NCBI GenBank assembly: GCA_903828695.1
Contig: CAIKNE010000100.1
Span: 1-48,947, forward strand
Length of the DNA: 48,947 nucleotides
Source: an uncultured Burkholderiales bacterium
Lineage (GTDB): Bacteria > Pseudomonadota > Gammaproteobacteria > Burkholderiales > Burkholderiaceae_C
Direction of reading: 5' to 3'
This document shows, one piece after another, positions 23,006 to 42,974 of the stretch; position 1 is the stretch's first letter; every line of letters begins with the position of its first letter. A program made the position numbers and the translations under genes. The notes under the pieces are model-generated. The model searched no databases. It saw nothing but the letters and a program-made list of their open reading frames with translations, and had not been told where the DNA came from.

Positions 23006-23962
23006 ATGACATTTAAAATTCTAGTCACCAGTCAAAAAGGTGGCGTTGGTAAAAGTACTCTGTCCGCCAATTTGGTTGCATATTTCAGTCGTCAAATGCA
23101 ACTAAAGACAACGCTCATAGACTGGGACCCACACGGCTCATCCAGCAACTGGTTGCTACACGCTCCAAACGTGGGTGTCGTCGTTCAACATTTAAGCTTA
23201 CCTGTTGATCAGGGCGGCAATCGACCCATTTTTGAAGCAAGACTCCAACTCAGACATGCCACCAAAACGAGTGACATCGTGCTGTGCGACTTAACTTGGT
23301 CAGACTCTTTGGCTGGTGAGTTGATGTTTGAGTTTGATATGGTTTTGGTACCTACTTCAGTGTCTGAGATCGAACTGGGTGCGACCTCTGGATTTTTAAG
23401 TAGAAACAGATGGGTTTTTGATTCTGCAGCAGCCAGACGTCCCATGCTACTGGTATGCCCAACCCGCGTACTACCAGAGCAATTAGCCTCTAATATTTTC
23501 ACGAAACAACGCTTCCCGGTTAGCTTCATGTTGGCGCCTCCCGTTCAAGAATCCCAAACAGCGCGGGATCTGTACGAACGAGGATTCCTCATGGACTCTG
23601 AGGACGTGTGCGGTTTCTCTTTCCTGCAATTTGCCCAAGCCGTCTGCGCAGCTCGTGAGATGCGCATGGCACAAAACAACCAGGCCGCCAAGGCCACTAC
23701 GCTATCGAATAACGTCGGCGCGACGAGCTCAGACCGATTCGCAAATGCAACGACTCCGCGCTCAAGCGTGCTCGACGGCGTCGTCAGCTCAGCTCAGTAC
23801 TCTATTTTGGGACGTCATAGGCAACGTAAATTAGCCGAGGCTGAGCAGGCTTCAAATACTACAGCAGCCGCATCGACGGATACTTCCCGCTCTATGTCCT
23901 CCCTTGGTATTCCTGAGTTCATAAGACGCATGTCACGCGGTACCTCCCCAGCAAAAAATTAA
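23006..23962 (+). CDS. ParA/MinD-family ATPase with extended C terminus
   Basis: A deviant-Walker ATPase of the type that positions DNA, protein clusters or envelope machines. The A' motif is SQKGGVGKST, with signature K11 and K16. The switch I region reads DWDPHGSSSNW (D39, D41), where most ParA proteins have DPQ. A Walker B-like DIVLCDLTW and the VLVPTSVSEIELG strand follow. The core ends near residue 215. The remaining 100 residues are Ser/Thr/Ala-rich and probably disordered, ending in a short basic helix (PEFIRRMSRG). There is no parB homologue next to it. The next gene, 12 bases on, encodes a coiled-coil protein that is the likely partner. This is not the chromosomal soj gene by context. 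Confidence 0.85.
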   Translation: MTFKILVTSQKGGVGKSTLSANLVAYFSRQMQLKTTLIDWDPHGSSSNWLLHAPNVGVVVQHLSLPVDQGGNRPIFEARLQLRHATKTSDIVLCDLTWSDSLAGELMFEFDMVLVPTSVSEIELGATSGFLSRNRWVFDSAAARRPMLLVCPTRVLPEQLASNIFTKQRFPVSFMLAPPVQESQTARDLYERGFLMDSEDVCGFSFLQFAQAVCAAREMRMAQNNQAAKATTLSNNVGATSSDRFANATTPRSSVLDGVVSSAQYSILGRHRQRKLAEAEQASNTTAAASTDTSRSMSSLGIPEFIRRMSRGTSPAKN

Positions 23963-23974
23963 GCGGTTTTTATC

Positions 23975-24622
23975 ATGGCAGAAGACAAATTCCTCGCCTT
24001 CAAGGGCCTCAAACAGTACGATCCTGATTCAGGATGGGCAAGCGTTGCGCCCGCTGATAATGTCCCCGACTTCAGCGGGGAACAAGAGGAATCATTCGAT
24101 CACGACCACTACGAACACCTTCAAGGTCATACCTACAACCATGATGAAGGCTTTTACGTAGATCCTGCATTTGAAAAAGATTTGAATGATTTATCCATGG
24201 ACTTATCCAAAAGTCATGACGCGAATCAACACTCAAGAAGAAATACCAATACCTATTCGAACTCGAATCAAAGAGATCACAAGGAGAGATTCCAAGAGGA
24301 CATAAACCTCTCGGACCCTTTGCTTTCAGAACTGTTTGAGCAACTGCATCAGCCCCCGCAAGATGAGTTGACACAAAATTGGAAGATCATTGCTACAAGC
24401 GTTAATATTTTGAGCCAGCGAATGGCTCAGCGACGTGATTTAAAAGAACGCTTGACTAAGCTCGACCAAGAGCTTGAGATACTTAGGTCAAACATATTGC
24501 ATGATTTGGAAGATATCCAAAAAGCTGCCGACCAACAGCTCTCTATGGCCCGCCTTCGCGCTGAGGTCTCAACGCTAGCCCAGGCGCGCCTGGCCTCTCG
24601 TTTGAAACAAAAGAACGGTTAA
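23975..24622 (+). CDS. Coiled-coil protein, probable partner of the ParA-like ATPase
   Basis: No family recognised. Residues 1-120 are acidic, His/Asn-rich and low in hydrophobics, so probably disordered. The segment INLSDPLLSELFEQLHQPP (about 110-128) looks like a short interaction helix. Residues about 135-215 form a continuous amphipathic helix with heptad-like spacing (RDLKERLTKLDQELEILRSNI), ending in a basic tail. It begins 12 bases after the parA-like stop, so the two are surely co-transcribed. ParA-type ATPases usually need an activating partner with a basic tail; by position this protein would fill that role. Confidence 0.68.
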   Translation: MAEDKFLAFKGLKQYDPDSGWASVAPADNVPDFSGEQEESFDHDHYEHLQGHTYNHDEGFYVDPAFEKDLNDLSMDLSKSHDANQHSRRNTNTYSNSNQRDHKERFQEDINLSDPLLSELFEQLHQPPQDELTQNWKIIATSVNILSQRMAQRRDLKERLTKLDQELEILRSNILHDLEDIQKAADQQLSMARLRAEVSTLAQARLASRLKQKNG

Positions 24623-25094
24623 CGCAACTGCTGAATTCAAGTACGCCTTTGCTACTGATTTTTTACATCAACGAATAAATCCGCGTCATATTTGTGCGCC
24701 TAAACCATGCGTATCTAAGGGTTTGAGTTGGGTCGGTTGAATGAATGATCCTTTAATGCACTCGCACGAAATTCTTAGAACCTGAGCAATAGACACCTAG
24801 GTGACTGGTGCGTCGATTGCGCATCGCTTGTACGTCACTTGTACGTCACTTGTACGTTACTTGTACGCCACTTGGATACTGCTTTCTCAACTCAGGTTGG
24901 AACCACAAAATTTGACAAAAAAATTCTTAACTCTGACTCTCCTCTGCTAAAACTCCAGGTATAGTCTCTCAAGAAAAAGCACATTGTTAGCTAGGTAGAT
25001 TCGCTATCTTTTGTGGAGATTTATTCAGATAAGATCATCCTTAATTTTGCAATTTAACAGACTTCCTTCATTTTGAAATAACAAGAGAACGCCA
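24623..25094. other. Long intergenic region with tandem repeats
   Basis: No gene is visible in 472 bases. The only clear structure is the 11-bp repeat array at 24827-24870. The stretch 24910-25090 is AT-rich and presumably contains the promoter of the glutamate-synthase-domain gene. A TTGACA is seen near 24912 but no matching -10 box at normal spacing. Confidence 0.55.
24827..24870. repeat. Four 11-bp direct repeats (iteron-like)
   Basis: The unit CTTGTACGTCA occurs at 24827-24837 and 24838-24848, then with one change each as CTTGTACGTTA (24849-24859) and CTTGTACGCCA (24860-24870). A degenerate fifth start CTTGG follows. The 11-bp period is about one helical turn, which places repeated binding faces on one side of the DNA. 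They lie about 205 bases after the parA-like pair and about 225 bases before the next gene. Confidence 0.8.
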
Positions 25095-26771
25095 ATGTTT
25101 GATCGTTTGAACTCAGTTTTCCCCATCCGCTACACCACCTTCTTTGTAGCATTGGCAGGTTTTTGCTTAACCTTACTCATCACAGTTGTGACGGGACACG
25201 GCATATTTGAGCTGTGCGTATTTGGACTACTAACAGGCATCGGTGTCTACGATTTGCAGCAAAAGCATCACTCCATATTGAGAAACTATCCCATTTTGGG
25301 ACACTTACGCTTTATGCTGGAATTTATTCGCCCTGAGATTAGGCAGTATTTTTTTGAAAATGAAACCGAGGCCTCTCCCTTCTCGCGCGCCCAGCGAAGT
25401 CTCGTCTACTCCAGAGCTAAGGGTGAATCAGATAAACACCCCTTTGGTACCGATTTGGATGTGCGCGCAACCGGCTACGAGTGGATCACTCACTCCATTG
25501 CTCCGTCCACCATCGAGTCCCATGATTTCCGAGTACACGTGGGGGGCGATCAATGCAAATTACCTTACGATATAAGCCTATTTAATATCTCAGCGATGAG
25601 TTTTGGCGCGCTCAGTGCTAACGCTATTTTGGCGCTTAACAAAGGCGCAAAATTGGGTGGCTTCGCACACGACACCGGTGAGGGCTCCATCTCAACGCAT
25701 CACCGTGTGCACGGGGGGGATATTATTTGGGAGGTCGCATCCGGTTACTTTGGATGCAGGGACGATACTGGGCACTTTAGTCCTGAACAATTTAAAAAGA
25801 ACGCCCTTAGCCCGCAGGTCAAAATGATTGAGATTAAACTCAGTCAAGGAGCTAAGCCCGGGCACGGAGGCGTACTCCCAGCCTCTAAAGTCACACCCGA
25901 AATTGCTGAGGCGCGAGGCGTACCCCTCGGTGTGGACTGTGTATCCCCCTCCTCACACTCCAGGTTCTCAACTCCCCTAGAGATGATGGACTTTGTCGCT
26001 GAGTTGCGAGAGCTCTCAGAGGGGAAACCAGTAGGCATTAAACTTTGTATTGGCCACCCTTGGGAGTGGTTTGCAATTGTGAAAGCGATGCTCGAGTCCA
26101 AGATAAGACCCGACTTTATCGTGGTCGACGGCGCTGAAGGGGGCACGGGCGCAGCACCCCTGGAATTCTCAGACCACTTGGGCATGCCACTTCAAGAGGC
26201 GCTTAGACTGGTCCATAACACCTTAGTGGGTGTTGGCCTGAGGGAGCAGATCAAGATCGGTGCCAGCGGCAAAATCATCAGTGGCTTTGATATCGCAAGA
26301 GCCCTCGCACTCGGAGCCGATTGGTGTAACAGTGCACGTGGTTTTATGTTCGCTGTGGGCTGCATCCAAGCGCAGACCTGTCACACCGGTAACTGTCCAA
26401 CAGGCGTAGCAACTCAAGACCCCGTTAGGCAAATCGCCCTCGTAGTTCCCAGCAAAGCTGAGCGTGTTTACGGATTTCACAAACACACACTAGAAGCGGT
26501 GAAGGAAATTTTAGAAGCTGCGGGGCTGCACCACCCCAAAGATCTAAATCTGCATCACATCATACGCAGAATCAGTGAGCATGAAACAAAACCCTTATCT
26601 ACGCTCTTTCCTGATGTGGAAAAAGGAATCTTGTTGACCTTAAAAGACAGAGCTGACGAGAGTAACAAAAGCGAAGTTGCAGCCCAGGTTATTCAAAAAG
26701 AAATTTTTCACATCTTTACGGTTTATTGGCCTTTGGCTCAGGCCAATAGCTTCGCTATGAAGAAACATTAA
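25095..26771 (+). CDS. Membrane-anchored FMN-binding glutamate synthase domain protein
   Basis: Carries the synthase domain of glutamate synthase without the amidotransferase part. Two hydrophobic segments (about 15-33 and 37-50) anchor the N terminus. The FMN-binding barrel follows (NISAMSFGALSANAI, HGGVLPASKVTPEIAEARGV, FIVVDGAEGGTGAAPLEF). The 3Fe-4S-type motif C423-x5-C429-x4-C434 is intact in CIQAQTCHTGNCPTGVATQDP. Length 558. Proteins of this stand-alone class are common in bacteria, but their reaction is not established; some electron-transfer oxidoreductase role is likely. It stands alone and shares a terminator-like hairpin with the convergent gene. Confidence 0.88.
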   Translation: MFDRLNSVFPIRYTTFFVALAGFCLTLLITVVTGHGIFELCVFGLLTGIGVYDLQQKHHSILRNYPILGHLRFMLEFIRPEIRQYFFENETEASPFSRAQRSLVYSRAKGESDKHPFGTDLDVRATGYEWITHSIAPSTIESHDFRVHVGGDQCKLPYDISLFNISAMSFGALSANAILALNKGAKLGGFAHDTGEGSISTHHRVHGGDIIWEVASGYFGCRDDTGHFSPEQFKKNALSPQVKMIEIKLSQGAKPGHGGVLPASKVTPEIAEARGVPLGVDCVSPSSHSRFSTPLEMMDFVAELRELSEGKPVGIKLCIGHPWEWFAIVKAMLESKIRPDFIVVDGAEGGTGAAPLEFSDHLGMPLQEALRLVHNTLVGVGLREQIKIGASGKIISGFDIARALALGADWCNSARGFMFAVGCIQAQTCHTGNCPTGVATQDPVRQIALVVPSKAERVYGFHKHTLEAVKEILEAAGLHHPKDLNLHHIIRRISEHETKPLSTLFPDVEKGILLTLKDRADESNKSEVAAQVIQKEIFHIFTVYWPLAQANSFAMKKH

Positions 26772-33891: not shown

Positions 33892-34371
33892 TTAGAAATT
33901 AACCGTAACCGTCAAAAAATCACCATAATACCCAACACCTGCATCTTGACCAGGACCGATTTGTCCATACAAACTCAGTATATTGGTGGTGCTTGATTGC
34001 ACAGTCACAGCACTGCCTTGCCCTTTTCCATCGCCCCAAACTATAGTTCTGGCGGCGTCAGTAAAGATGTTGTACCCAAGCTTGTCCGGGCTAGTACTGC
34101 TTGTCATGAACCTTTGGGTAGTACTGCTGTGTTGGCCAGTCGTTAAAGTAATCACGGGAAACACTTCGCCACCAGTGCAAGTGACGGTGACAGTCCCTAC
34201 CCCACTGTTGTTAGGAAGTGATTGCAACGCACTATAGGGACTGAAAACCACCCCTACGCTATTGATGGTACAGGCAGCAATTGCACTTTTGAAGCTAGGC
34301 AGCAAACTCATCAAAATCAAAACGAATTGAAATGCATTGATATTGACATTACTTCGAAATCTGTTTTTCAT
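33892..34371 (-). CDS. Csu-type pilus subunit, single spore-coat-U domain (tip-like)
   Basis: Exported pilus subunit of the archaic chaperone-usher class. Signal peptide about 1-33 (KSAIAA before CTIN). One SCPU domain follows, with the early Cys of ACTINSVGVVFSPYSAL, a second Cys in VTVTCTGGEVFP, and the terminal strand YGDFLTVTVNF. It is last in the operon and overlaps the usher gene by 23 bases. The place of CsuE tip adhesins is filled, but CsuE usually has two domains (over 300 residues) and this has one (159 residues). Confidence 0.85.
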   Translation of the reverse strand: MKNRFRSNVNINAFQFVLILMSLLPSFKSAIAACTINSVGVVFSPYSALQSLPNNSGVGTVTVTCTGGEVFPVITLTTGQHSSTTQRFMTSSTSPDKLGYNIFTDAARTIVWGDGKGQGSAVTVQSSTTNILSLYGQIGPGQDAGVGYYGDFLTVTVNF

Positions 34372-36865
34372 TTTTTATTCCCTTACAAATGACTACTCCA
34401 AGATCAGGGAGTGGATCTGAGCTAGGTTGAAATTTAACTGTGAACTGACAAACTCTGTGATTCCAAAATGCTTTCAGTTTTGTGATACGACTCAGGTGAG
34501 CAACATAGACTTGTCCACCTTCGCCTACCGTATATTTATCGTCTAAGGTATCTATTTTTACCTCGGAACCGGCAGGTAAATATCTGCCGTCTTCTAACTT
34601 AATGGTGAAAGTTGCTGCGTTGGACTGTTCAATTGGGAACTTAACCTCTAGTCCACTTCGGTAGTACGGGATCGCTTCTACTTTAACGCCTAAAATCTTT
34701 GCATTGAGCGGAAAATCAGATGGACGAACCGTGATTTCATTTTTATCATAAGCTCTAAGGCGAGGTATCAATGCCTCCCCGTTGCTATCCGTCTTTGCTG
34801 CGGGTTGATTGTCAACAAGTACCGTTATATTTGGATAATCTGGAACCACAGCCAAAGCAAAGCTTTGATCTAAACGACGACTCATAAAGAAGTTGCTCCC
34901 TATGATTGCAATTCCTCCACTCGCATCTAGGCTTGTAGACGTTTGTCCTTGATCGCTGGCTACGGCTGCAGTGTATGTTCCAACATTCGTTTGTAAAGTG
35001 TAAGCTCCTAAGCTCGATCCATCGTTTCTTGCTTGAAATAAGTAGCCGAATCCCTCTCCAAGCGGAACACTCTTTTGGAGCGTAGCTGCAAAATCATTGC
35101 TATTGCTATTATTAGCACCCCCACCGTGCTTTGACTGAGCAGTAACGCTTGCATTGACAGTCGACCCCAGAGGGATACTGAAAATTGTGAAAAATGTTGT
35201 TCCATTCTCGCTTGCTAAATCACGCAAAGCGGAAATACTCAAAAAACCGTACCCCCCCAAGGACATCCCCCAACCCAGGGTTACTATGCGCGAACTTGCC
35301 ATGTCTCGGTTTATTTGACTTATATAGGCAAGATTCACGGAGCCTGCGTCAACTGTTGTATAACTGATATTGCTTGTAACCAAATTTGCTGGTGAGAACT
35401 GTGTGGTTTGTTGCCCTACTTCGGTAAACCCACTACTGGCCCATTGCGAACGAAGTCCCATACTCCAAGGTCGGGAGAGTCTATCAAAACCAATTAATAC
35501 GAGACCACCGTTGGTAGTAGAGGTGCCGGCGGTAAGGTTCGTTGATGGAAGGTATGGGTTGAGCGAGTTAGATTGAGCTGAGATATAGTCTGCTCCAGTT
35601 TTGCCGTGACTGGCGGCGACGTAAGTGCTGAGAGTCCCGATTTGAGGAATAAGATAATCACCGCCCAAACCAGTGGTCAGGTGCTCTGCCATTACTTCTG
35701 TGTGCACTTCACCTGTAAAAAAATCATTGAGCCCTCTTCTGTAATTCTCAGAAGCGATCCAGGAGCTGTAGTTGTTGCTGTCTGTTCCGTAATTATTTCT
35801 AACAAAACCAAGATCGTAAGAAAATACTTCTAAGTCCTTTTTGAGCAATATCTGACTTGCATAGAAAGGCTCAACAATAAGTTGTTCACGTCCGAGCAAA
35901 TCTCTAATGACCAAGTTAACTTCACCAGAACCGGAAACAATTGGGAGATTACTGATTGAGAAGGGTCCAGGCGGCACATTTTGACGAGAAACTAATGCAT
36001 TGTTAATAAAAACATCGACAGTAGATGGCAATAGTGCCTCACCCCTCGCACCTTGCATTGGATAGGCAATAAATCCTGGCTGGGTCGTAAAGTTAGTTCC
36101 AAATTGGATGCCTCCAAATCGAACTGAGCGCCCCCAAGTACCAGGACTGCTGATATCGTCACCAATTCGTATGGACTGCATTTTGTCGGGCAAATCAATA
36201 GTCCACGTTGTATCGAGTCGCGTATTAGTCGTTCCAGTATCAGTGTTGCGAACTAAGAAACTGTTTACGCCGACACCGTAATGATTAAAATACCCAAGCT
36301 CGAATTGCCCTGAATGCTGGGAATATCCGAATGTGTTGGATGTGAATAGGTCGTAATTCACAAATCCCCCAGGCCCGGTGCGCACTGGAGCCGGTAGAGC
36401 GCTGTAGCGACTAGAGCGGATTGTCTGAAAAAATGCTTGTGGTTTTGCCTGAATTGTTAAAGTCGATCTAACCTTATCAACTAAGGGCGGTAATTCTGCA
36501 ATCGAGCTGATAGGGTAATAGGTCTGCTCCTCATACACAATAGCGGTGCTTAAAGGTGGTGTTTGGAGTCTCCAACGTTTCAAGTCTTCAGCCCAGAGAT
36601 AAAACACCCCTGAATTGTCTTCTAAGACCAGTGCTGTTTGGTTTAATTTTTGTCCGTTTATCTCAATCTCTAATAAGATTGATGTATAGACACTCAATCC
36701 TTGAGAAGCACTATTACCGTAAGTTATAGCAATTGGTAACCCTGGAAAAAGAGAGTTTGTTGAATCCTTAACGGGTATATTCTCACCCGCCCAAGCCACT
36801 GAACAGAATGAGAATAATACCCAACAAAAGGGGACGAAGAAAGGATTACGGTTTATCCACAACAA
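34349..36865 (-). CDS. Outer-membrane usher of archaic chaperone-usher pilus (CsuD type)
   Basis: Outer-membrane 24-stranded barrel that assembles and exports pilin. Signal peptide about 1-26 (VAWA before GENI). The N-terminal chaperone-binding domain is residues about 45-150. The barrel begins near GGFVNYDLFTSNTFGY and includes the plug region around PGPFSISNLPIVSGSGEVNLVIRD. The C-terminal domains follow YPNITVLVDNQP, with a Cys pair near the end (CQFTVKF, VVICKG). The 838 residues are normal for the class. The TTG at 36865 overlaps the chaperone gene by 20 bases. Confidence 0.93.
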   Translation of the reverse strand: MLWINRNPFFVPFCWVLFSFCSVAWAGENIPVKDSTNSLFPGLPIAITYGNSASQGLSVYTSILLEIEINGQKLNQTALVLEDNSGVFYLWAEDLKRWRLQTPPLSTAIVYEEQTYYPISSIAELPPLVDKVRSTLTIQAKPQAFFQTIRSSRYSALPAPVRTGPGGFVNYDLFTSNTFGYSQHSGQFELGYFNHYGVGVNSFLVRNTDTGTTNTRLDTTWTIDLPDKMQSIRIGDDISSPGTWGRSVRFGGIQFGTNFTTQPGFIAYPMQGARGEALLPSTVDVFINNALVSRQNVPPGPFSISNLPIVSGSGEVNLVIRDLLGREQLIVEPFYASQILLKKDLEVFSYDLGFVRNNYGTDSNNYSSWIASENYRRGLNDFFTGEVHTEVMAEHLTTGLGGDYLIPQIGTLSTYVAASHGKTGADYISAQSNSLNPYLPSTNLTAGTSTTNGGLVLIGFDRLSRPWSMGLRSQWASSGFTEVGQQTTQFSPANLVTSNISYTTVDAGSVNLAYISQINRDMASSRIVTLGWGMSLGGYGFLSISALRDLASENGTTFFTIFSIPLGSTVNASVTAQSKHGGGANNSNSNDFAATLQKSVPLGEGFGYLFQARNDGSSLGAYTLQTNVGTYTAAVASDQGQTSTSLDASGGIAIIGSNFFMSRRLDQSFALAVVPDYPNITVLVDNQPAAKTDSNGEALIPRLRAYDKNEITVRPSDFPLNAKILGVKVEAIPYYRSGLEVKFPIEQSNAATFTIKLEDGRYLPAGSEVKIDTLDDKYTVGEGGQVYVAHLSRITKLKAFWNHRVCQFTVKFQPSSDPLPDLGVVICKGIKNEKQISK

Positions 36866-37595
36866 TGACTGTATCTACGTTGACGGAATCGGTATAGGCT
36901 TTTAGGTGCAAAGGCTCGCCCGCTATAGTTTCTGATCCAGAGGGTTTAAGGATCCAAGCATGCGACTGCCCAGAGAGGATGTAATTTGCACCAGTATCAT
37001 TAACGACGGAGTGCTCTGCTCCGACTGACAACAGCGTAAAGTCAGTAATTTTCACGTGTGCATTGCCCTCGTTATGAAGCTCAATTTTGATCATACTATC
37101 AGGCGCAGAGCTAACCTTCCAAGTCAGTTTGGGTTCTGCTTTGCCTGTTTGAGGTTGAATGAAAACTGGAACACTCACTCTCATCGCAACCTCGACAGCA
37201 GTCACATTCTCCGAAATTGAGGGAGATATTTCTTGCAGATTTATACGGTAGGTCAACTCCTTAGATTTGTCTGCCGGTATGCGCAGTGCCATACGAATAA
37301 TTTGAGATGATTGAGCAGGGATAGTAACGATCGGAGGAGTAACCAATAACTCCCTTGTAGGCAAGTAAACATCCTTGCCGTCAACTTGGGACCATGCAAT
37401 GGGTTGAATTTGAATGGTTGTCAATTTGTTTGAAGCGTTGGTGATAGTCATAGCTGCAGTTTTTTGTTTTGGCGAGAGATCTATCCTAAGTGGATCGATA
37501 TTCCAGCCTGCTGCTTGAGACGCGAAAGAAATCAGGGCTAAAGCGAAGAGACTAAAGAGGCGCTTTGAATTTTTGAGGATGGGTATAGTTTTCAT
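36846..37595 (-). CDS. Periplasmic pilus chaperone (CsuC type)
   Basis: Two-domain immunoglobulin-like chaperone that donates a strand to pilus subunits. Signal peptide about 1-28 (ASQA before AGWN). The family opening WNIDPLRIDLSPKQKTAAMTITN is followed by the G1-strand alternating hydrophobics near PAQSSQIIRMALRIP. The second domain covers about 150-249. I start at the ATG at 37595, eleven bases after the pilin stop; a longer in-frame form would overlap pilin. The next gene is the usher. Confidence 0.92.
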   Translation of the reverse strand: MKTIPILKNSKRLFSLFALALISFASQAAGWNIDPLRIDLSPKQKTAAMTITNASNKLTTIQIQPIAWSQVDGKDVYLPTRELLVTPPIVTIPAQSSQIIRMALRIPADKSKELTYRINLQEISPSISENVTAVEVAMRVSVPVFIQPQTGKAEPKLTWKVSSAPDSMIKIELHNEGNAHVKITDFTLLSVGAEHSVVNDTGANYILSGQSHAWILKPSGSETIAGEPLHLKAYTDSVNVDTVIVVDKP

Positions 37596-37606
37596 TCTAT
37601 TAATTC

Positions 37607-38155
37607 TTAAAAGTAAATTGTTGCGGTAATGGTATCTGTATAGGCATCGGCTGCAACGCTCTGCCCCCCCGGAATAGTTCCGCAAATGTTATAAAGCTGA
37701 ACAAGTGAATTAGCAGCTACAGGTATGGGCAAAGTTGTACCTGTACTTGGTCCCCAAGCGGTAGATGCCGGGAATGTACAGGGTGCACCCGGTACATTTG
37801 TTGAAGGTTGAAAAACGTTATAGAGCAATAGACCTGCAGAGGTTGTCCCTACCATCGCTCTTTGACCGCCAGTATTCTTTTTCCCGTAATCAAGTCCTAC
37901 CAATACGCTAGTAGAGCCTTTTGTGCATGCGATGCTAATTTGACCCACCGAATTTAAAGCAACGGTAGCGTTAATGCTCACTGGATCGTAAGTTGCAAAA
38001 TTGAGACCCAACGATGTTGCAATCGTACAGGCTTGCGCAACTCTTGCATTGACTGGTATGGGTGTTGTTACACTTCCCCCGGATAAGCCTTGTGCAAATG
38101 CTGAGGATAAAAATACCTGCGAGATGAGAGTTGCAATGATTGTGTTTTTATTCAT
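37607..38155 (-). CDS. Csu-type major pilin, spore-coat-U domain (CsuA/B-like)
   Basis: Structural subunit of the archaic pilus. Signal peptide 1-21 (SSAFA before QGLSGG). The SCPU domain has the first Cys in VAQACTIAT, another in SIACTKGS, a third pair in GAPCTFPAS and YNICGTIPG, and the closing strand YTDTITATIYF used in donor-strand pairing. It has 182 residues. It is the first gene of the pilus set, 92 bases after the TpsA gene on the same strand. Confidence 0.92.
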   Translation of the reverse strand: MNKNTIIATLISQVFLSSAFAQGLSGGSVTTPIPVNARVAQACTIATSLGLNFATYDPVSINATVALNSVGQISIACTKGSTSVLVGLDYGKKNTGGQRAMVGTTSAGLLLYNVFQPSTNVPGAPCTFPASTAWGPSTGTTLPIPVAANSLVQLYNICGTIPGGQSVAADAYTDTITATIYF

Positions 38156-38247: not shown

Positions 38248-41200
38248 CTAAAGCGGTCGTACAGTTAGGACTCCATTCACGTACTTGACTGTATAGTTTG
38301 AAGCATTGAATGAGCCCCCAGACACAGGTGATGCTGTAATCACATAGGGATTACCTGCAATGGTAGCGCTTGCTGCGCCGCCAGGACTTGACAATGAAAG
38401 TTCGGCAATCGTATCTCCGTTCACTAGTCCATCTAAGCTAAATGCAGTGGGTGTGAGGGAAGTGCCTAATGGCTTCCAAACATCTGCTACTGTAATGAGG
38501 AGTGCAACGGGCAAAACATACAACGAACCGTTTATATATGTAATGTTGTAATTCGATGCTTGAAATGTCCCGCCCGTAGCATTGCTAGGTACTACGGCGT
38601 ATGGTGATAGATTGACTCCAGCACCTGCAATAGAGCCCGCGCTTAACATTACAACTCCCCCTATTGTTTCGCTGTTCACGAGGCCTGCCTGGGTAAATTG
38701 AGTAGGCAGGGCGATTTGTCCATAACTCTTGCTTAGATTTGAAGCCTTAACAGTCAGCGGTGCTTGAGTGATATTGCCCGAAGTTAGGGCAGTTGAGGCC
38801 ACTTTGTAATTTCCTGCACTGGGACCCGACACGGTGATACCTGCTACGTTAACTGTTATGCCTGCACCAACATTGGGACTTATGAAGTTACTAGTGCCTG
38901 CTGATAATGCAACCACATCTCCAGCGAAAGGGGCATCATTGAAGCTCACAGTTGCAGTAGTGGTGCCGTCGTAGATTTTATTGACCCCCTGCGTTGTAAA
39001 AGCCAAAGGCGCGGGGGTGATATCTGCTGTTGTTAATCCCTGATTGGACACAAGAGAAAACCGGGATGAATTGATCCCACCAAGACTGTAACCGCTGTAA
39101 TTTAGCGCGATACCTGTTCCTGCATTTGCCGAGACAAACGCGCTCGTTCCTGAAAGTAATGTAACAAGGCCACCAAGAGCGGGGTTTCCCATCATCAAAA
39201 GTGGTCCAGCAGTAGTTGTTCCGTTGTAAACTTTATTGGTACCAACAAGATAGATGAGTGCTTTTGCATTGGAACCTACGGGATACCCAGCAATGTCTGC
39301 GACTGTATTTGCGTAACCATCCGGATTAAACAAAATTGAGACACTGGTACCCGTAACTGCTGCGTTTAGGATCACTGTTCCTGCAGCCAAGCCTGGACCA
39401 ATGCCAGCCATTCCGGAGTACAACTCTACGGGTGAGGTTGCGCCTACCGTTGAAACTGCAGCACCAACAGTTAGATTTCGTCCAGCTATTAAATAAACAT
39501 TTGTTCCAGCACCAGTCGTGGTAATAACGCTAGCACCAGAGGTCGTTATATCTCGTCCTGAAATCACATTAATGCTAGTGGTTGCACCAAGTCCCGAGAG
39601 GGAAGAGTTGATCTGAGTATCCTGGCCAGAGTTAACATTAAACTGAGCTGATACCCCTGCTATATTGACTCCCCCTCCTATAACTGCATTATTCTGAGCG
39701 TTCAAGGTAATTTGACTTGTAGCCGCGGCAACGGAGCTGATTAAAGCTGTCGTTATTATGTTTTGTTTGGCAGAAATAGTCAGCCCCGCGCTGACGCCGT
39801 TTATGGTGATGGGTGAATTTATGTTGACATTATTACCGGCGTTCAAATTAATGGCCGTACTTACTGCGTAACTTGATATGGGGGCATTGATGTTGATGTC
39901 ATTACCAGCATTGAGAATCAATTTTGAGCCCACAGCATTTTCAGTAATGGGCTGAGAAACAACAATGTTATTGACTGCGTTCAAGGTAAGCGTTGTTGCT
40001 GCTAACCAATTAATACCTTGGTTGACCTGAATATTGCCAAGAGTCCCGCTTTTACCGTTAGCACTGGATATGACCACATTGGAAGTTGTTAAATTCAAGT
40101 CAAGTGTATTGGCGGTCACATCACCACCATTCGCAGCACTGTCAATAATAAAGTCAGTTGGATCAAGTGTCCATATTCCAGTGAGTCCTGTGGGCGCCGT
40201 AGTATTAACCGTTGCAGAGGCTGCGATATTGAGCACCCGACCAGAAGTCTCAACATTTCCCCCATTACCGCCCATGCTCCCAGCTTGCGCAGATATATCT
40301 CCTGTCACATTCGTTTGACTAGTTGGGTTATTCAAGTCGGCAATTATCGATACCGTTCCACCACTGGCATTGCTATTTGTTGCGGCATCAGCCCTTATGG
40401 ATCCCCCGGCATTGATAGCTTGGGAAGCTGTTAGTCGAATGACGCCTCCATTAGAGATCATACCCGTAGCATCCAATAAGCCTGAATTGCCAACTATGCC
40501 ACTCTGTATTTGATGAACGCCTTGGGCAGAGAGAATGATGAGTCCACCTGGCGCATATACCGCGTTGCCATTCGTAACTAAGGTTGCTATTGTTGCTGGA
40601 GTTACGCTTATTGAGTTCAAGTAGTTTCCGCTGAACTGGAGAATATATTGATTGCCAGCGGCTAATACGACAGTTCCCATCCGAGCAATAATGACGCCGT
40701 TGTTGCGCACTGTAGGGGCTAATAGTGCAATATATCCGCCAAGGCCAGACTGGAGAGATCCGTCGTTCACAAGTTTTGCACTCATCCCCTGGCTAGTGAA
40801 GGTTGTAACTGCGGCCATAAAATCGGAAGCACTAAGAGTGTTGGTTGTGGCGACCAGTCCCCCCGCAATTACACTTGCACTAGGAGAGAAATAGATGCCA
40901 CTTGGGTTGGTTAAGAATACCTGTCCGTTCGCATTTATATGTCCAAATATCTGTGTTGGATTATTACTAAGCACTTGATTTAGTAAAATGCTAGAACTAG
41001 AGGGTTGCGTGATGTTTACTGTAGCAGCGCTACCTACATTAAAACTATTCCACGATAGCGCAGCTTGAGGTGTAGTTTGATTAATCGACATAATCTGACC
41101 AGCTTGACGAACAGATACCTGCCCCCCCATCAATGCACTCCCAGTAGGCAATTGACTCGCAAGAGGAGGGGGCAATGGTGGGGCGGCTTCAGCAGGAAAG

Positions 41201-41307
41201 CTCATTGCGATTGCCGTGATCAACATACCTATGGCTAATAGGATGATTGCAGCTGCGATTAGTTTAAATATTTTCACGATCAAAACCCAACGATTGCTGT
41301 GAGCCAT
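38248..41307 (-). CDS. Two-partner secretion exoprotein (TpsA, FhaB/HecA-like) with YDG/MBG repeats
   Basis: Large secreted or surface-retained adhesin. The N terminus holds a long signal sequence (about 1-42, PAEA before APPL). The secretion domain is about residues 45-170, with the FLTNPSGIYF motif at 131-140 (the usual NPNGI reads NPSGI). Residues 390-650 are short beta-helix repeats around NAGNxININ and NVNSGQD. The final 330 residues contain two YDG-type units (VYNGTTTAGPLL and IYDGTTTATVSF) and two MBG-type units (KSYGQIALPTQF and the C-terminal FSLDGLVNGDTI). Length 1019 is short for such proteins. The gene overlaps the end of its transporter gene by 28 bases. Confidence 0.9.
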   Translation of the reverse strand: MAHSNRWVLIVKIFKLIAAAIILLAIGMLITAIAMSFPAEAAPPLPPPLASQLPTGSALMGGQVSVRQAGQIMSINQTTPQAALSWNSFNVGSAATVNITQPSSSSILLNQVLSNNPTQIFGHINANGQVFLTNPSGIYFSPSASVIAGGLVATTNTLSASDFMAAVTTFTSQGMSAKLVNDGSLQSGLGGYIALLAPTVRNNGVIIARMGTVVLAAGNQYILQFSGNYLNSISVTPATIATLVTNGNAVYAPGGLIILSAQGVHQIQSGIVGNSGLLDATGMISNGGVIRLTASQAINAGGSIRADAATNSNASGGTVSIIADLNNPTSQTNVTGDISAQAGSMGGNGGNVETSGRVLNIAASATVNTTAPTGLTGIWTLDPTDFIIDSAANGGDVTANTLDLNLTTSNVVISSANGKSGTLGNIQVNQGINWLAATTLTLNAVNNIVVSQPITENAVGSKLILNAGNDININAPISSYAVSTAINLNAGNNVNINSPITINGVSAGLTISAKQNIITTALISSVAAATSQITLNAQNNAVIGGGVNIAGVSAQFNVNSGQDTQINSSLSGLGATTSINVISGRDITTSGASVITTTGAGTNVYLIAGRNLTVGAAVSTVGATSPVELYSGMAGIGPGLAAGTVILNAAVTGTSVSILFNPDGYANTVADIAGYPVGSNAKALIYLVGTNKVYNGTTTAGPLLMMGNPALGGLVTLLSGTSAFVSANAGTGIALNYSGYSLGGINSSRFSLVSNQGLTTADITPAPLAFTTQGVNKIYDGTTTATVSFNDAPFAGDVVALSAGTSNFISPNVGAGITVNVAGITVSGPSAGNYKVASTALTSGNITQAPLTVKASNLSKSYGQIALPTQFTQAGLVNSETIGGVVMLSAGSIAGAGVNLSPYAVVPSNATGGTFQASNYNITYINGSLYVLPVALLITVADVWKPLGTSLTPTAFSLDGLVNGDTIAELSLSSPGGAASATIAGNPYVITASPVSGGSFNASNYTVKYVNGVLTVRPL

Positions 41308-42974
41308 AACTGTGTACTACCCGTAGAACCATTTTGGTAAGTTCCTGTGCTGCTTAGGTTTGAATCTGTACCTACACGTTTCGCCCAAGTCGTTTTAATG
41401 TCCACGCCAGCCAAGAGCTGCATCCCAACCGATAACCCAACACCTTTTTGGTCATAGCTATTGAGATCCCCCTTTACTGCATAAGCATTATTTGGATTAA
41501 CCTGAACGTGCCCATAGTCGTAGAACAATGCAAGATTTGTGTTTTGAGTGAGTGCCTTTCTAAGTTCAAGATTAAGTAATTGACCTTGACTCCCTGCACC
41601 TTCATTAGTTGGATATGCCCTGACTCCGTTTAATCCGCCTAAATAGAACATCTCAGACGGGTCCAAGTTGGCTCCACTCGCTTGACCACTGAGGCCTGTG
41701 TAAATGCTTAGGCCGTCATGGTCTAAGTAATGGGTTCGGTTTGCAATGTATCTGGTTTTAGTGAAACCGCCCTGCGCATTGTTATAACTTGCAACTGAGA
41801 ATTGATTGGGAGAGCCATCTAAATTAGTATTCCCATTTGTAACTATTAGGCTAAAGTTACTTGCACCGGTACCGCCAAATCTATCAAAAGTATTTAAAAA
41901 CAGTGCAGCAGAATAATCCATTACTGAGTACCGACTGACTGATCCACTCAAAGCATTGCTATTGCCAAATACATGGTAATCGGAATTGAATCCTACATAG
42001 AGATTATTTGTTTTTGAACGTATGACTGGGTAGAGTGTTTCAAATCCTTCAGAAGATCCGGATCCTGCTGCGCCCAGACCTGCAAACTGAACAGCCACCA
42101 GTTTGTAAGACATCGTGGAAGCATTTACACCCATTCTCAACCCGTCGTCACCAATAGGTAAGGTATAGCTTAGTCGAGCGTAGTCACTTCCATCTGAGCG
42201 AAGATAAACGACCGAGATCAGGTCTCCTATACCCAGTGGACTGTTGACACCTAGATTACCAACCACTCGATTTGCGCCGATTGAGGAAGGTCCAGAATTA
42301 TCCGCCTGCAAACTTCCCGAATAAAGGGGTTCATCTGCAAGGGTAGCGATTACATCAGTTCTTAAAGCAACTGGACTTTGGGAGTAGATGGCATCAACCT
42401 TTATACCTGGTAGGTCATCGGCCAATAACACTGCGCGTTCTAATGTCTTAAGATTAACCAGTTGTCCGCTAATTTGTGATGCATTTATAGCCTGACTTAT
42501 TTGCTGTGAACCAACCCTAGTACTTATGCCCAACAACCTCACTGAACCCCACCTTGACTCTTCAATTTGAACCCTGAGCGTATCATCTATGATGATTTGC
42601 TCTGGAATAACTACCCGAGCTATTGCACCTGAAGTTCGGTATGCCTCTTCAATGGAATTGGCAAGTGCCTGTAACTGTCCAAAATCGATGGACTTATTGA
42701 GATACGGCGCTAGCAATAATTCAATCTGGGGGTTTGAAAGTAAAGTATTTCCAGCATAGACAATCTTCCTCAGCCTAAAGCTTATTCCAACGAGTGCTTG
42801 CCCCTTTGGCTCGATGATTGTGTCTGCCCTGTCCTTGTTGGGCAAAGGTGATTGATGTAAGGTATTGTCAATATTTTGCTGCAATGAGCCTGCACTGGGA
42901 ATTTGACCAAAACACGTTGCGACTGCGAAAAATGCGCACCACGGAATTAATTTGAGTGGAGCGTAAACTTTCAT
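41280..42974 (-). CDS. Two-partner secretion transporter (TpsB, FhaC/ShlB family)
   Basis: Outer-membrane Omp85-family barrel that exports the TpsA protein. Signal peptide about 1-23. POTRA-like repeats lie at about 65-145 (FRLRKIVYAGNTLLSNPQI) and 148-220 (VRLLGISTRVGSQQISQAI). The barrel begins near GSLQADNSGPSSIGANRV. The conserved family segment GLNGVRAYPTNEGAGSQG (loop L6-type) and the C-terminal barrel strand LWLTAIVGF are visible. Length 564. It precedes tpsA in the same operon. Confidence 0.92.
   Translation of the reverse strand: MKVYAPLKLIPWCAFFAVATCFGQIPSAGSLQQNIDNTLHQSPLPNKDRADTIIEPKGQALVGISFRLRKIVYAGNTLLSNPQIELLLAPYLNKSIDFGQLQALANSIEEAYRTSGAIARVVIPEQIIIDDTLRVQIEESRWGSVRLLGISTRVGSQQISQAINASQISGQLVNLKTLERAVLLADDLPGIKVDAIYSQSPVALRTDVIATLADEPLYSGSLQADNSGPSSIGANRVVGNLGVNSPLGIGDLISVVYLRSDGSDYARLSYTLPIGDDGLRMGVNASTMSYKLVAVQFAGLGAAGSGSSEGFETLYPVIRSKTNNLYVGFNSDYHVFGNSNALSGSVSRYSVMDYSAALFLNTFDRFGGTGASNFSLIVTNGNTNLDGSPNQFSVASYNNAQGGFTKTRYIANRTHYLDHDGLSIYTGLSGQASGANLDPSEMFYLGGLNGVRAYPTNEGAGSQGQLLNLELRKALTQNTNLALFYDYGHVQVNPNNAYAVKGDLNSYDQKGVGLSVGMQLLAGVDIKTTWAKRVGTDSNLSSTGTYQNGSTGSTQLWLTAIVGF

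Follow-up and report, generated by a model that had tools for sequence, protein, structure and literature searches.

The window analysed here is the whole of contig C100 (48,947 nucleotides), part of a 3.0-Mb genome of an uncultured freshwater Burkholderiales bacterium assembled in 161 contigs, and the system in question is a pair of genes on its forward strand. The first encodes a ParA/MinD-type ATPase and the other, beginning after a gap of 12 bases, a small protein that is called here the partner (Table 1). A preliminary description of this DNA had placed both open reading frames in the same way and interpreted them as an orphan ParA-like ATPase with a dedicated coiled-coil protein, forming a self-contained positioning pair with an undescribed cargo. 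Among the matches listed in a contig scan seeded with generic ParA motifs, from which only L093 to L095 were used, the closest named relative of the ATPase was found in Limnohabitans sp. JirII-31 (L093; best segment 57% identical), which has a homolog of the partner as well; the host genus is provisionally called Limnohabitans-like.

Table 1. Coordinates of the ATPase, the partner, their parts and the next gene in the window.
Feature	Position	Strand	Basis or remark
ParA/MinD-type ATPase, 318 aa	23006..23962	+	open reading frame; Pfam CbiA/ParA/AAA_31; AlphaFold2 model and PDB fold matches
Deviant Walker A QKGGVGKST with signature lysine, residues 10-18	23033..23059	+	sequence
Switch region DWDPHGSSS, residues 39-47, replacing DxDPQ	23120..23146	+	sequence
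Walker B variant CDLTW, residues 94-98	23285..23299	+	sequence
Low-confidence tail, probably disordered, residues 232-318	23699..23959	+	pLDDT <50
Basic amphipathic C-terminal segment IPEFIRRMSRG, possible membrane-binding helix	23909..23941	+	similar in aligned genus rows
Partner (proposed adaptor), 215 aa	23975..24622	+	open reading frame; match in 67/81 same-genus genomes
N-terminal motif FLAFKGLKQYDPDSGW, proposed ParA-contact peptide	23990..24037	+	alignment A2; homolog counts; decay in G011
Variable acidic linker, residues 23-112	24041..24310	+	pLDDT <50 for the most part; a single short helix at 64-77
Conserved C-terminal domain with 84-residue helix 131-214	24311..24619	+	proposed dimer and cargo-binding part (putative function)
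Glutamate-synthase-domain protein	25095..26771	+	PF01645 5.1e-87; separates the pair from the flagellar operon in relatives (synteny)

The identity of the first protein as a ParA/MinD-type ATPase, as previously described, was supported by its motifs, by Pfam and by the predicted fold. In an alignment of 11 ATPase rows, residues 10-17 of the intact deviant Walker A box are invariant and T18 is nearly so. D39, D41 and S46 of the switch region, where the DPHGSSS reported earlier in place of DPQ was read again, and D95, T97 and W98 of the Walker B region are invariant. The switch takes the forms DPHGSSS, DTHGSSS, DSQGSST, DSQASSS, DRQATSS and DKQASSS in the other rows, and DTPA stands where the lineage of the window has DLTW in four of six class-level relatives among those listed (19 scanned). 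CbiA (3.5e-11), ParA (9.6e-9) and AAA_31 (3.2e-7) of Pfam are matched above their cut-offs and every NCBIfam cut-off is missed, the best model being ParA_partition with 45 vs 180 bits. An AlphaFold2 model built on a four-row alignment, with a mean predicted local distance difference test score (pLDDT) of 60.0, predicts with modest confidence a ParA/MinD/NifH-like fold, and its best match in the PDB is the TP228 ParA-ParB complex (E 8.8e-8), the other top matches being nitrogenase-type Fe proteins, MipZ and Soj. The long C-terminal tail, taken before as disordered, does fall below a pLDDT of 50 from residue 232 but is not featureless, as it ends in the basic segment IPEFIRRMSRG, conserved among the genus rows aligned. 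The hydrophobic moment of this segment exceeded that of tail shuffles at ≤0.01 in seven of eight genus rows and gave values below 0.05 in 4 of 16 non-genus rows, in a test whose MinD control failed (0.856).

The partner matches no Pfam family over its cut-off and no NCBIfam family in profile searches of both. It consists of three parts, the first being an N-terminal motif in which aliphatic and lysine residues precede a Y-x-P-x-x-G-W turn. G11, P17 and W21 of this motif are invariant in the 15 rows of alignment A2, two of which, L181 and L094, start one residue late. The motif occurs in 60 of the 65 distinct partner homologs of the loci scanned and is modeled by AlphaFold2, with low confidence, as two short strands (14-16 and 20-22). 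The second part is a linker with a net charge of -13 and a length that differs widely between homologs, and the third a C-terminal domain in which L120, F121, W136, A140, R171, L178, L189, A192, R195, S199 and A202 are invariant in A2. In the four-row model of the whole protein (mean pLDDT 65.3) the helix spanning residues 131-214 reaches block means of 81-98 and, because this region is predicted as a single helix and its hydrophobicity peaks at a period of 3.5 residues, it is likely a coiled coil. With an isoelectric point of 5.08 and a net charge of +3 in the last 20 residues, the acidic coiled-coil protein with a basic C-terminus anticipated in the preliminary description was recovered.

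The occurrence of both genes was examined in 81 evenly drawn genomes of the same genus with a completeness of at least 57%, using profiles A1 for the ATPase (E ≤ 1e-20) and A2 for the partner (E ≤ 1e-5). The ATPase was found in 68 and the partner in 67 of them; 65 genomes encode both, three only the ATPase (G444, 59% complete; G462; G467, 69%), two only the partner (G011; G031, 62% complete) and 11 neither (Fisher 2e-9, kinship ignored). Chance pairing is ruled out since both genes are present in 65 of the 81 genomes, and in 63 of these 65 they lie on one contig and on the same strand with the partner downstream, G013 and G019 having them on two contigs. This evidence supports that the two genes form a dedicated pair, a part of the earlier interpretation that stands. 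Linkage to the ATPase is thus the rule among relatives, and the locus does not belong to a parABS system, as the partner is not of the ParB type, no parB is adjacent and the soj-parB genes of this organism were recognized by eye on contig C148 (L001).

Outside the genus, the ATPase was detected in 15 of 399 genomes of the order (E ≤ 1e-12) and the partner in eight, the window genome being counted in each; the other seven partner-bearing genomes all have such an ATPase and all belong to family f18. Among 369 genomes of the class, 187 matched the ATPase profile at E ≤ 1e-10, and those outside the order are ordinary ParAs. As the best of these matches scored 85 bits in an alignment that spans model positions 4 to about 165, the close ATPase lineage seems confined, within the genomes drawn, to a few Burkholderiales families.

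Evidence on the function of the N-terminal motif came from loci where the partner persists alone. In G011, a complete genome (100%), the ATPase and the glutamate-synthase gene of the locus are gone and the partner is kept, directly abutting a gene called c6 (see below). Compared with G461, the most similar ATPase-bearing partner among those compared with G011, the coiled coil retains 94% identity (dN 0.047, dS 0.76, that is nonsynonymous and synonymous divergence; 10.5 nonsynonymous and 34.5 synonymous changes, 101 codons) and the motif only 57% (dN 0.30, dS 0.35; 12 nonsynonymous and 4 synonymous changes, 21 codons), a contrast with a Fisher value of 0.0005-0.0007. The complete G011 gene entered this comparison. 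The motif was less conserved than the coiled coil in all eight pairs including G011, whereas in pairs without it the motif was as conserved or more in 10 of 11, the exception being G461/G033 (76 vs 77%). In G011, therefore, the motif has decayed and the coiled coil has remained under strong selection.

A similar pattern was observed in family f18, where the motif-bearing homologs of G311, G340 and G369 lie directly before the type VI secretion genes tssB-tssC with an ATPase in the cluster, within 7 kb. The homolog of G281 located before tssB has no motif and no ATPase in the 12.0 kb read, and neither was found for that of G183, for which tssC is the next recognized type VI gene, in the 14.9 kb read. 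When 65 distinct coiled-coil domains were counted (L001-L008, L096-L172 and L278-L296 being omitted and the window copy being L009), 56 had both the motif and an ATPase at the same locus. Four had the motif without a same-locus ATPase: L052 (G025), where the ATPase frame has three in-frame stops; L054 (G013), split over contigs; L068 (G031), at a contig edge; and L270 (G369), with the ATPase about 6 kb away. Five had neither, namely G011, G183, G281, a paralog in G028 on a 5.6-kb contig and L042, the latter discounted as its partner is cut by the contig end. These counts include a motif pattern that was widened for L095 after inspecting it and come mostly from one genus, so that the rows are not independent. 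Across the sequences compared, the motif and the ATPase come and go together, and their joint loss is as expected if the motif is the contact with the ATPase.

The gene order around the pair points to the flagellum. With FlhB scored as present above 270 bits, the ATPase and flhB were found together on one contig in 40 genomes of the genus, in every case on opposite strands and separated by 5.3-9.3 kb; in 23 further genomes they are on separate contigs. Of 13 same-genus regions fetched, 11 show the pair adjoining part or all of the convergent operon tail fliP-fliQ-fliR-flhB-c3-c12-c6, with the glutamate-synthase-domain gene intervening; in the remaining two, G011 has the operon and the partner and no ATPase, and the contig of G027 stops after the partner. 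The gene c3, directly downstream of flhB, encodes an undescribed protein with a cytoplasmic domain, a transmembrane segment and, in the copy tested, a C-terminal SPOR domain (PF05036, 24.4 bits, cut-off 21), and is followed in most regions by the small acidic c12 and the transmembrane coiled-coil protein c6 (L185 2322-5566 and equivalents in the regions read). That the operon is flagellar was supported by fliF, fliG and fliP of G006 and fliR of G016, which exceed their NCBIfam cut-offs and rule out a type III secretion system; for FliI, the one cut-off passed is that of the FliI/YscN subfamily, and all flagellin matches are below theirs. By eye, the neighboring cluster of G006 contains flgE to flgL, fliD, flagellins and fliE to fliR. 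Also in this cluster is the gene of a flagellin-like protein that, at 1419 aa, is very long (L206 4083-8342).

The converse relation, that the pair needs flagella, fits the eight genomes without FlhB above threshold (hypergeometric 0.004 for a post hoc count). In three of these, c6 is at a contig end (G032, G438 and G461), along with c3 in G032 and G461; the contig of G455 stops after the partner, the completeness of G031 is 62%, and G020, G462 and G469 have no intact ATPase, G020 and G469 matching neither FlhB nor the ATPase. In the 99% complete G462 the ATPase breaks off near residue 199 and fliK (PF02120, 62 bits) is the next gene recognized, while profile searches found neither the partner nor FlhB; the simple explanation is a deletion that took the flagellar side.

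Homologs of the system also occur beside other envelope machines. The type VI identity of the f18 clusters is based on VipB (7.7e-124) together with Hcp, TssF, VasE, IcmF and VgrG domains in G340 and on VipA (4e-54) in G311, and on similarity or inspection by eye in other genomes. In G311 and G340 (L194, L197 and L275) the type VI cluster holds an ATPase, a c3-like membrane protein, regulator-like genes and a partner homolog directly before tssB. A second clade of f18 ATPases faces its partner convergently (L083-L089, and also L094), in several cases next to a small membrane protein. Bactofilin genes adjoin ATPase paralogs in L069, L071, L091 and L092, in f32 (L080 and L081) and in the same-genus genome G465 (L222), and in L095 an ATPase and a partner homolog stand among four bactofilin-like and two M23-type peptidase genes. 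ATPase-bactofilin neighbors were found in L186, L189, L196, L199, L203, L204, L222 and L095, five of the eight with M23-type peptidase genes, so that the ParA-bactofilin link seems recurrent; one bactofilin call was checked against Pfam (2.5e-22) and the others were joined to it by BLAST clustering. A tree of 39 ATPase rows resolved the convergent clade, a clade of f18 type VI and bactofilin members and a clade of the genus including its own paralogs, with several long branches that make the deep joins unsure. Near an ATPase paralog of G281 lie two genes (L193 2483-4460) that by eye resemble a MotA/ExbB-type and MotB-type pair, as in ZorA/ZorB.

Based on this evidence, we lean towards the view that the two genes encode an ATPase and its adaptor, in which the N-terminal motif would contact the ATPase and the coiled coil the cargo, here probably the flagellum. 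The adaptor motif would bind the ATP-bound ParA dimer and trigger hydrolysis, as other partners of ParA/MinD proteins do, and the flexible acidic linker would tether it to the long coiled coil, which may dimerize and bind the cargo. ATP-bound dimers may coat a surface, either the nucleoid or the membrane through the basic amphipathic C-terminus of the ATPase; an adaptor carried on the cargo would stimulate their release and create a gradient, and the cargo would be placed by following ParA or by clearing it. As the pair adjoins the flagellar export operon in relatives, the leading candidate cargos are the flagellar basal body, the export apparatus or the small envelope proteins c3 and c6, whose genes lie at the end of the flhB operon. 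The earlier view of a cargo simply undescribed is in this respect too narrow, and the pair is self-contained only in the sense of being dedicated, as it is part of a wider family with members at type VI and bactofilin loci. The term orphan is only partly apt, too. In an excerpt of PMC10241942 it is stated that many ParA/MinD ATPases are called orphans because of the great diversity of their partners, and that a charged N-terminal stretch of the partner touches the ATPase while the remainder touches the cargo; such stretches are also described in an excerpt of PMC12462528. The layout of the protein studied here, with a putative N-terminal contact stretch and a separate cargo part, matches these accounts.

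In this sense the pair appears to work like the known ParA/MinD partner systems, and its assignment to a named subfamily is not supported. With ParA-ParB, MinD-MinE, McdA-McdB, ParC and FlhG it shares the fold, the deviant Walker A box and an adjacent small partner, whose N-terminus would contact the ATPase and whose remainder would serve the cargo; it differs by DLTW (compared with few relatives), DPHGSSS, a tail with about 90 disordered residues and a partner of no Pfam or NCBIfam family. Like FlhG, the ATPase is a ParA/MinD protein tied to flagellar genes, but it has an adjacent adaptor and no FlhF neighbor, and a separate flhF-flhG pair was recognized by eye with a fliA-like gene on contig C136 (L003), named by order and similarity since FlhF scores 112 bits against a cut-off of 174 and the FlhG-like protein 118 against 202 for the MinD model of NCBIfam. 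Unlike MinD, it lacks minC and minE neighbors, minC-minD-minE being located, also by eye, on C59 (L002), and the same genome has three small ParA-like genes (L004-L006). A mis-annotated FlhG or MinD is ruled out by the presence of both kinds elsewhere in this genome. McdA-McdB is similar in combining a ParA-like ATPase with a small partner, as McdB is small and largely disordered with a helix; however, no carboxysome or microcompartment gene was recognized by eye nearby, and no McdB match was obtained in Pfam or NCBIfam. Soj-ParB-parS shares the fold and provides the closest solved sequences, whereas the partner in the window has no ParB domain. A ParA-type ATPase linked to bactofilins is also found in the bactofilin-organized ParABS of Myxococcus xanthus (excerpt of PMC5703909), although here it is paralogs, and not the window copy, that adjoin bactofilins.

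Several observations weigh against this interpretation. In the window genome the flagellar operon lies on C31, a different contig that stops just after c6, a location in which rearrangement and assembly error cannot be told apart, and beyond position 26771 the window carries unrelated genes; this genome, moreover, already has the usual flagellar positioning pair flhF-flhG. In ten genomes FlhB scores above 270 bits and the ATPase is absent (the row of G017 being divergent and that of G435 partial), and G023 and G450 among them keep the operon tail and the glutamate-synthase gene without the pair; the pair is thus dispensable for the locus, and a strict dependence of flagella on it is ruled out. 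Limnohabitans australis is described as non-motile in an excerpt of PMC3031073; motility is not mentioned in excerpts of PMC3591437. With regard to the proteins, the first 22 residues of the partner have a net charge of -1, unlike the positive stretch of many partners; the ATPase model is of low confidence, and the sequence profile of the ATPase aligns with solved Soj (6iub, 8.3e-11) over only about 45 N-terminal residues. Membrane binding through the tail is weakly supported, as the moment test did not pick out the helix of MinD. As for the motif, G011 is a single event, G461 already has T in place of the first lysine of the motif so that some of the decay may be older, and both G183 and G281 carry ATPases of this lineage elsewhere.

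Other explanations were weighed against the same evidence. The pair might position an envelope complex of c3 and c6 marking septal or polar peptidoglycan, the flagella being mere neighbors. This possibility, which we regard as unlikely but the most serious of the alternatives, draws on the SPOR domain of the c3 copy tested, on the position of the c6 gene, immediately beside the partner gene in G011, where the ATPase and the glutamate-synthase gene are gone, and on a resemblance between the N-terminal 150 residues of c3 and a protein that neighbors the ATPase among the type VI genes of G340 (27% over 157 aa; E 6e-9 when 15 sequences were compared), by which c3 and the ATPase may recur together without flagella. 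The similarity is weak, though, the best genus match for the copy of G311 having an E value of only 0.003, and c3 and c6 persist in G023 with neither ATPase nor partner. It is rather improbable that the ATPase resembles FlhG/FleN in regulating gene expression or the number of flagella, with the partner as its regulatory target: FleN/FlhG acts on gene expression too and the pair is linked to flagella, but a flhG-like gene is already found beside flhF and the fliA-like gene in the window genome, the ATPase scores far below every NCBIfam cut-off, and the pair has relatives at type VI and bactofilin loci. That FlhG controls the number and place of flagella is stated in an excerpt of PMC10241942, which would favor such a regulator, and the same source reports that ParA homologs position chemoreceptor arrays in other flagellated bacteria. 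A ParC-ParP-like role in such arrays, with the array genes elsewhere, seems still less probable; no chemotaxis gene was recognized by eye in the regions read, no genome-wide search being made.

We consider very improbable a DNA partition cassette, in which a tandem repeat just downstream of the partner, described below, would be the centromere. A ParA-like ATPase, a small partner and a nearby repeat of 4.4 copies would suit such a cassette, but the repeat unit has no exact copy in the regions of five relatives, the partner matches no DNA-binding family of Pfam or NCBIfam, and the pair sits between conserved genes in relatives. A parABS cassette in particular is disfavored by the lack of a ParB match along with the missing repeat.

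Returning to the ATPase-adaptor interpretation, a broader version of it can be tentatively put forward, plausible but held with less conviction, in which the partner would represent an undescribed adaptor family. Its members would combine an N-terminal plug for the distinct DLTW-type ParA lineage with a coiled coil that has been redirected from one envelope machine to another. Its target would be the flagellum in Limnohabitans-like bacteria and the type VI apparatus in a single Burkholderiales family with small genomes, and in others it may be assemblies of bactofilins and M23 peptidases. To our knowledge, placement of a type VI apparatus by ParA would be new. Among the papers listed in a literature search, the titles and the openings of abstracts contained no report of a ParA-placed type VI apparatus and nothing naming this ATPase-partner pair. 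Genome comparison alone has assigned a partner to the ATPase, distinguished in this partner a likely motif for ATPase contact from a part for the cargo, and named candidate cargos. If the interpretation holds, a second ParA system would operate at the flagellum beside FlhF-FlhG, and the same kit is suggested for type VI machines.

With respect to the rest of the window, the DNA downstream of the partner contains an 11-bp unit, CTTGTACGTCA, in 4.4 tandem copies (24827-24874); the regions of five relatives, including the close relatives G012 and G027, have zero exact copies of it. In relatives the glutamate-synthase-domain gene and the flagellar operon lie downstream of the pair. The former gene, which follows the repeat in the window, is probably not part of the system. 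Further along, a chaperone-usher fimbrial cluster was recognized by eye at 33892-38155, adjoining a two-partner secretion pair at 38248-42974.

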